This document shows positions 24,987-26,375 of a stretch of 41,829 bases of DNA, piece after piece (the stretch's first letter is position 1; the number at the start of each line of letters is the position of its first letter). Both the position numbers and the translations under genes were made by a program. The notes beneath the pieces are model-generated. The model was not told where the DNA came from and did not search any database. It saw only the letters and a list, made by a program, of their open reading frames with translations. The DNA is taken from the NCBI GenBank assembly GCA_026988095.1, contig JALSLX010000118.1, positions 1-41,829 on the forward strand. Reading direction: 5' to 3'. Origin of the DNA: Thiotrichaceae bacterium (GTDB lineage: Bacteria; Pseudomonadota; Gammaproteobacteria; Thiotrichales; Thiotrichaceae).

Positions 24987-25004
24987 GATTAGGATTTCTT
25001 AATA

Positions 25005-25085
25005 CCACCCCCCCTATTTTATGCCGATTTGTACGAGGAAATACGTGTTTTTTGATTACAAAACAGTAAAAAATAAGGGGGGTGG
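25005..25085. repeat. Palindromic element copy 4 (81 bp) between convergent genes
   Basis: The left arm begins CCACCCCCCCTATTTTATGC and the right arm ends with the inverse, GGGGGGTGG. Arms of about 28 bases pair with several mismatches, and the centre ATACGTGTTTTTTGAT matches the centre of copy 3, so the two are homologous over their full length rather than only in the arms. It sits 18 bp after the EamA gene stop and 19 bp before the end of the convergent arsM-like gene. Some changes in one arm (TATTTTAT) are mirrored by changes in the other (AAAAAATAA), suggesting partial maintenance of pairing. Confidence 0.9.
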
Positions 25086-25104
25086 ACAATAACAAATACT
25101 ACTT

Positions 25105-25926
25105 TCAGCCTAACTTTCCAGCAAATTTAGCGCTCCAAAGGTTTTTTGCTATTGGCGAGGCAATCTTAATAAGCAAACGCTCTACTATACTTTTCCCGCA
25201 ACACGATAACTTAGTTAGAAACGGAGGAAGTAAATCAATAACAGCAGAAGCCAGCTGTAATGGCTCATAATACTGCCTTGCAACAACGCTGCAATCCGTA
25301 AGCCCTGCATTTTTCAACCCTTGCAAATAGTGTTGTTCAGATATAGTTCCACCTGCACAAGCAGCTACTAATATCCCACTGCGTTTAACCCACCTTGGCA
25401 TATTTTCGGAGACTATATCCGAGACTAACATTTGCCCATTGGGTTTTAATACGCGAGCAATTTCAGTAAAAGCCTTTTCTTTGTCAGACGATAGATTAAT
25501 AACACAATTTGAAATTACCCAGTCGATATATTCAGAATCAATAGGCAAGTTTTCAATCAACCCCTTTCTTAATTCAATATTTTTGAACCCTGATTTATCA
25601 ATGTTCTTTTGTGCTTTGTTTAGCATATCCTCATTCATATCAATGCCAATGACTAATCCTTCTGCACCTACCTTCTCAGCAGCCAACAAAAGATCAAGAC
25701 CCGTACCGCATCCCAAATCCAAAACTACATCACCTTCTTTCACTGAACTGGTCGCTAAAGGATTACCACAACCAAAGGAGTTGTCTGTCATTCCTTCTGG
25801 TAAGTTTTCTAATTCATGAACCGAATAGTCTGCAAATTTTGCCCCTCCTGTCGCTGAAACTATATTTTTATTTTCTTTGATAGCTTTTGAATATTCTGCC
25901 GATATTTTTTCACTTTTACTTTTCAT
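25105..25926 (-). CDS. arsM: ArsM-like arsenite methyltransferase
   Basis: A 273-residue SAM-dependent methyltransferase. SAM motif I is VVLDLGCGTGLDLL (about 67-80). Three cysteines fall in the positions that bind trivalent arsenic in ArsM: Cys53 in SFGCGNP, Cys141 in ISNCVINLS and Cys190 in AACAGG. The family reaction methylates As(III) to methylated arsenicals. A C-terminal part with Cys242-Cys243 (KLSCCGKS) ends the protein. A MerR-type regulator gene lies 66 bp upstream on the same strand with a MerR-style promoter between them. The substrate is inferred; related methyltransferases of other metalloids cannot be excluded. Confidence 0.85.
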   Translation of the reverse strand: MKSKSEKISAEYSKAIKENKNIVSATGGAKFADYSVHELENLPEGMTDNSFGCGNPLATSSVKEGDVVLDLGCGTGLDLLLAAEKVGAEGLVIGIDMNEDMLNKAQKNIDKSGFKNIELRKGLIENLPIDSEYIDWVISNCVINLSSDKEKAFTEIARVLKPNGQMLVSDIVSENMPRWVKRSGILVAACAGGTISEQHYLQGLKNAGLTDCSVVARQYYEPLQLASAVIDLLPPFLTKLSCCGKSIVERLLIKIASPIAKNLWSAKFAGKLG

Positions 25927-25956: not shown

Positions 25957-25988
25957 AATATAAACCCTCCCCCAGCGGGGAGAGTCAA
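25957..25988 (-). promoter_or_regulatory. MerR-type promoter/operator upstream of arsM
   Basis: On the minus strand the -35 is TTGACT (25983-25988) and the -10 is TTATAT or TATATT (25957-25963), giving a 19- or 20-bp spacer, too long for ordinary sigma-70 use. Between them lies a dyad at 25964-25985 with arms ACTCTCCCC and GGGGAGGGT around GCTG, eight of nine pairs matching. An over-long spacer filled by a dyad is the hallmark of promoters that MerR-family proteins activate by DNA distortion. The -35 is four bases from the end of the merR-like gene, so arsM has its own regulated promoter. Confidence 0.85.
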
Positions 25989-25991
25989 GTC

Positions 25992-26375
25992 TCAATTTTT
26001 AACTTGCGGAAATAAACAATCTGAATAATCAGAAAGGCACTGCTTAATTTCATCGCTATAGCTATCTAAGTCTTTTTTATGATTCTGAAGTCTTGAAATT
26101 TCCTTCGTGATTTTTTGTTCTTTTGAAGAAATAGCCCTCCTAATATTCTCCCAGTTTGCCAAGTTTCCTTGAGGGTAAATAACATCTTTTAATTCTGAGA
26201 GTTTAAAATCAAATGTTTGTGCAATTTTAATAAACTTAATAATAAATATATCTTCTTCTGTAAAAACACGATATGAGTTTTCTCTAGAAATATTCGGCAA
26301 TAAACCTAACTCTTCATAAAGTCGAATCGCTTTAACCGTTGCTCCACTTTTTTTAGATGCTTGACCTATATACAT
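25992..26375 (-). CDS. MerR-family metal-responsive regulator (CueR/ZntR-like)
   Basis: A transcriptional activator of about 127 residues. The N-terminal winged helix-turn-helix has the family pattern IGQASKKSGATVKAIRLYEELGLLP and YRVFTEEDI. A dimerisation coiled coil follows (about 75-105). The C-terminal CLSDYSDC, two cysteines six residues apart, lies where CueR and ZntR have their metal-binding loop. The cysteine that ZntR/MerR carry at the start of the dimerisation helix is not evident; a Trp lies near that position. The preferred start is ATG 26375; a GTG at 26387 in frame is possible. The probable target is the promoter just downstream, driving arsM. Confidence 0.85.
   Translation of the reverse strand: MYIGQASKKSGATVKAIRLYEELGLLPNISRENSYRVFTEEDIFIIKFIKIAQTFDFKLSELKDVIYPQGNLANWENIRRAISSKEQKITKEISRLQNHKKDLDSYSDEIKQCLSDYSDCLFPQVKN

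Follow-up and report, generated by a model that had tools for sequence, protein, structure and literature searches.

An arsM-like gene under predicted control of a MerR-type regulator in a bacterium of the Cocleimonas group

A bacterium of the sulfur-oxidiser group around Cocleimonas carries an arsM-like methyltransferase gene behind a merR-type gene, with a stretched promoter of the MerR kind between the two (Table 1). The window, by which we mean the whole stretch of 41,829 nucleotides that was analysed, contains the gene pair, the promoter geometry, the dyad and the cysteines of the regulator; in related genomes these cysteines and the arrangement are conserved, and the regulator falls into a clade of its own. 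At the level of sequence, control of arsM by the MerR protein is well supported, and the chances seem slightly better than even that the two genes, merR and arsM, make up a detoxification unit activated by MerR, with a trivalent arsenical as the most likely inducer. In bacteria, arsenic genes are as a rule described as controlled by repressors of the ArsR type. Activation of arsM by a MerR-type protein, if true, would make for a different circuit, and one that might serve as a biosensor part. A search of open-access papers, a set outside which most subscription papers lie, found no MerR-controlled arsM.

Table 1. Positions of the merR-arsM unit and of the neighbouring repeat in the window.
Feature	Positions	Strand	Remarks
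merR-type regulator gene	25992..26375	minus	127 aa from ATG 26375; 131 aa from GTG 26387
-35 hexamer TTGACT	25983..25988	minus	invariant in 4 loci
operator dyad ACTCTCCCC-GCTG-GGGGAGGGT	25964..25985	minus	9-4-9, 8/9 matching, fills 19-bp spacer
-10 hexamer TTATAT	25958..25963	minus	TTATATT invariant in 4 loci
arsM-like SAM-dependent methyltransferase gene	25105..25926	minus	273 aa
imperfect inverted repeat CCACCCCCCCTATTTT / AAAATAAGGGGGGTGG	25003..25090		read directly from sequence

On the minus strand, positions 25988-25958 read TTGACT CTCCCCGCTGGGGGAGGGT TTATAT, and the spacer is exactly 19 bp, where the original prediction had given 19-20 bp. The 9-bp dyad with eight of nine positions matching, which had been proposed to lie between these hexamers and between the regulator and methyltransferase genes, was found there as the best dyad of the spacer region, inside the 65-bp gap that separates merR from arsM on the minus strand. 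The regulator frame runs to 25992 from either 26387 or 26375, and the ATG at 26375 is favoured because of the start points in relatives. Under a loose stretched-promoter model (TTGACA with at most one mismatch, TATAAT with at most two, a spacer of 19 or 20 bp, a dyad matching at eight or more of nine positions), 0.2 sites are expected per window on both strands; one was found, the site in the merR-arsM gap. The site is not a chance occurrence, because it is conserved in three other genomes: aligning the four loci leaves 24 of the 32 operator positions invariant, versus 6 of 30 in the leader between operator and start codon, and all four merR-arsM loci hold the dyad in a 19-bp spacer, within the 19-20 bp of MerR-family promoters. 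The genome that the window comes from is a draft, 92% complete, and at up to three mismatches no second operator site was found in it; the site at the arsM promoter is unique there, and a wider regulon in this genome was rejected on that count.

The original prediction had proposed a survey of genomes for conserved MerR-arsM pairs, and in such a survey the pair was found to be kept together with its operator in four genomes (the window's and three others) from three families in all. In genome G256 (locus L034) MerR is 81% and ArsM 79% identical to the window proteins, and in G060 (L006) the values are about 65% and about 60%. In G011, an uncultured Cocleimonas of the window's genus (L035/L005), the order is again merR-operator-arsM, and the contig ends inside arsM. 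G011 belongs to the window's family, G060 and G256 to two other families. The distribution is patchy, with the unit in two of 12 genomes of the window's genus and in one of three in a second family. We also scanned 369 genomes of the class for the operator pattern with at most one mismatch; whole-genome searches here cover samples of the class and phylum. The motif matched five times and the reversed motif, used as control, not once. Each of the five matches immediately follows a merR of the window regulator's clade, and the five genomes are the same five that head the protein search. Among 72,556 plasmid records no close relative of MerR or ArsM was found (all below 60% identity), and spread of the unit on plasmids was rejected on this ground.

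In G256 merR has a divergent neighbour, a gene for an integron integrase (TIGR02249, 421.8 bits; cut-off 265). Before merR stands a GTTAGGT boundary, and 3' of arsM there is an attC-like hairpin. The element so delimited (L034, 3946-5355, 1410 bp) has R''/R' ends that match at seven of seven positions and fold as one hairpin, and a second attC-like site lies 3' of the next gene. Judged by the adjacent integrase and the attC site with matching ends, merR, promoter and arsM are here one complete integron cassette. Such a cassette could account for the patchy spread of the unit and shows a route by which detoxification genes could pass, together with their control, from one bacterium to a distant one. 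Positions 2540-5950 of L034, with the integrase gene, the merR-arsM cassette, a gene for an AAA-domain (P-loop) protein and the two attC-like sites, form a chromosomal integron array. Beside merR-arsM in the window no attC-like site was found, and the unit is not classed as a cassette there. It is a tentative extension of these results, and less likely than not, that the window protein is one of a so far uncharacterised group of MerR activators with two cysteines, sensing trivalent arsenicals at a site where Trp takes the place of Ser/Cys, and that sensor, promoter and arsM can travel as one self-regulated integron cassette.

The regulator has an N-terminal MerR HTH domain and matches the Pfam models MerR_1 (41.6 bits, cut-off 21.6), MerR (37.1, cut-off 28.2) and MerR-DNA-bind (26.0, cut-off 25.4). 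It contains two cysteines, C113 and C120, spaced as Cx6C and conserved in all four orthologues. In the established MerR mechanism a dimer holds a promoter with a long spacer and untwists the DNA once its effector is bound (PMC9909328, PMC1526738). For the window unit we infer binding, activation, inducer and the substrate of the enzyme as follows. A MerR dimer would occupy the dyad between the -35 and -10 elements of the arsM promoter, where the 19-bp spacer would keep RNA polymerase idle. Where the dimerisation helix ends, Cys113 and Cys120 would bind an inducer or react with it, and this would make the dimer untwist the spacer and so switch on arsM, while merR itself would not be under control of this site. 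The most likely inducer would be a trivalent arsenical, As(III) or MAs(III), for which two thiols can serve as ligands; it would then be methylated by ArsM. A trivalent arsenical is put forward as the most likely effector because arsM is the only target found; an ArsM-type enzyme with three conserved cysteines and an ArsR-type gene beside an ArsP_1 permease in the same genome would agree with it. The number of cysteines available in the regulator, only two, appears to count against this effector; As(III) prefers three thiols.

The wider clade shares the operator class (TTGACTCTnCCC-n4-GGG-rAgrg-n-TTA) with other targets, which likewise seems to weigh against a trivalent arsenical. The majority of clade members found adjoin a gene for a flavodoxin-like NAD(P)H oxidoreductase (Flavodoxin_2; L007, L044, L049, L067-L069, L124-L126, L130), one adjoins a short-chain dehydrogenase gene (L076), and the target in L040 and L041 is a fatty-acid-hydroxylase-family (sterol-desaturase-type) protein. 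Since the two hydroxylase-linked proteins carry the Cx6C pair too, it does not mark a link to arsenic. Tandem MerR-NAD(P)H oxidoreductase units (L007, L068, L069, L124-L126) resemble the window unit in MerR clade and operator class, while their target is a flavodoxin-like oxidoreductase and most of them are without the second cysteine; a characterised member of these units was not found. A broader MerR profile, run over 324 genomes of the phylum, matched mostly generic MerR proteins. In L066 and L067 the gene order is oxidoreductase, then merR. With a weight matrix made from 13 operator sites, L067 and L125 not among them, the site was placed before the oxidoreductase gene in both L067 and L125, away from the merR stop, and the best score in L066 was weak (19). 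The placement in L067 and L125 argues that the operator belongs with the target gene as its promoter, and not with the end of merR, as part of merR or of its terminator.

Since members of the clade control oxidoreductases and hydroxylase-type proteins, the signal common to it may be something other than a metalloid, and the oxidoreductase-linked relatives suggest a quinone or another electrophile as the main rival inducer. The switch would then be the same, and the sensor would respond to quinones, reactive electrophiles or thiol oxidants instead of a metal or metalloid, with arsM captured by it and induced by general thiol stress. This is possible, though we think it rather unlikely. Besides the oxidoreductase and dehydrogenase neighbours, it is favoured by Trp75, which is conserved nearly clade-wide (at least 90% in a 14-member alignment), and by C113, which several members missing the second cysteine retain; against it, all four members of the arsM branch possess the two cysteines, and the branch has a single fixed partner. 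With one operator class, one regulator type and swapped targets, the clade is a clean test case, in which sensor recognition can be asked by comparing the branches with oxidoreductases, dehydrogenase, hydroxylase-type proteins and arsM.

The best curated match of the methyltransferase is arsenite methyltransferase PRK11873. Against the curated family NF008823 it scored 228 bits, the best of its library and below the cut-off of 263, and because of this shortfall we call the gene arsM-like; the same score appears to count against the arsenical reading. The best PDB matches are arsenic methyltransferases. C53, C141 and C190 align with the three conserved cysteines of red-alga ArsM, which we take to be C72, C174 and C224, and are invariant in the orthologues. 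Judged by these matches, the enzyme is arsM-like, with arsenic as its presumed substrate. It is improbable that the substrate is instead antimony, bismuth, selenium, tellurium or a small molecule, with the sensor following the substrate: the score below the cut-off and a C-terminal extension with a CC pair, common to the window arsM and its nearest relative L080, fit such a substrate, but the three arsenic-binding cysteine positions and the structural matches argue for arsenic. L080 and L081 are the arsM homologues of closest sequence outside the unit; in the stretch read upstream of them, merR and operator are missing. The closest homologue that lacks merR, L080 (G110, 1501-2334), is preceded by a gene whose product may be an outer-membrane protein. 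In L048 (G392) a different MerR gene is convergent to a classical arsM, and an operator of the window's kind is missing between them.

The original prediction had arsM activated by a CueR/ZntR-like MerR protein; the MerR-type stretched promoter before arsM stands, but the assignment of the regulator does not. CueR (NCBIfam TIGR02044) is the best curated model, at 60.2 bits with a cut-off of 147.4; the ZntR model gave 45.7 bits (cut-off 167.95) and the CadR-PbrR model 53.4 bits (cut-off 151.45). A tree was built with CueR, ZntR and SoxR of E. coli and one CadR and one MerR from plasmids as references; in it, a branch supported at 100/100 sets the window protein and 16 relatives apart from these. 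Trp75 of the regulator aligns with Ser77 of CueR, Cys77 of CadR and Cys79 of ZntR, the position which determines the metal charge that the site selects (PMC9909328). The cysteines of ZntR, CadR and PbrR at this position are absent, and Trp75 with Cx6C stands where CueR has Ser77 with a Cx7C metal loop; in known metal-sensing MerR proteins this Ser or Cys shapes the metal site, and its replacement also seems to speak against a trivalent arsenical.

Compared with CueR and HmrR, the window unit is alike in its MerR-type regulator sequence, the 19-bp spacer, the dyad between -35 and -10 and the two C-terminal cysteines; it differs in clade, key residues and target, which is a copper pump there and arsM here. 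The dyad had been predicted to differ from the CueR and ZntR signals, and it does: the CueR operator is ACCTTCCC-(5)-TGGAAGGT and the ZntR signal ACTCTGGAGTCGACTCCAGAGT (PMC1526738), whereas the operator of the merR-arsM unit is ACTCTCCCC-4-GGGGAGrGt. ZntR shares the outer ACTCT with the window operator and has a spacer of 20 bp. That a classical CueR- or ZntR/CadR-type metal sensor controls arsM is very unlikely: CueR is the best curated model and the Cx6C spacing is that of Cys112-Cys119 in CadR (PMC9909328), but the scores fall far under every equivalog cut-off, the clade is separate, Trp occupies the selectivity position, and the operator is unlike the CueR, ZntR and MerR signals. CueR/ZntR membership was rejected by cut-offs, tree and key residue, and to judge from these comparisons the regulator is a member of an uncharacterised MerR branch, not a known copper or zinc sensor. 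Its structure predicted from three sequences (mean pLDDT 73; weak MerR-type matches, best E 0.039) adds, as a model, nothing beyond the sequence. The notion that the dyad is a transcription terminator 3' of merR, suggested by a scan that listed CTCTCCCCGCTGGGGGAG as terminator-like, is hardly credible and was rejected, as a T run is missing after the stem (GGTTTATATT), -35 and -10 are conserved as well as the stem, and the motif in L067 and L125 precedes the target gene instead of directly following merR.

Like the predicted merR-arsM unit, the TtSmtB-TtArsM system of Thermus (PMC8649762) places a methyltransferase gene under a dedicated regulator; there an ArsR/SmtB repressor of an unrelated family acts by repression, while activation through a stretched promoter is predicted for the window.

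The ArsR-family genes examined in the window's own genome include no evident ars operon, except one beside an ArsP_1 permease. At that locus (L157, G000:C128:5000-8143), positions 1045-2630 hold an ArsR/SmtB-type gene, the permease gene and an 88-aa thioredoxin-like gene, a possible operon that might export methylated arsenicals. On contig 65 of the same genome (L002:1445-1476), TTGACTCTATAGTCTACTATAGGGTTTATACT lies upstream of a second MerR-type gene and, in our estimation, resembles PbrR/CadR-type sites. Downstream of arsM, the inverted repeat of Table 1, strong though imperfect, sits between the convergent arsM and EamA genes. It is absent from the list of a terminator scan with a loop limit of 8, and is probably a shared two-way transcription terminator for both genes.
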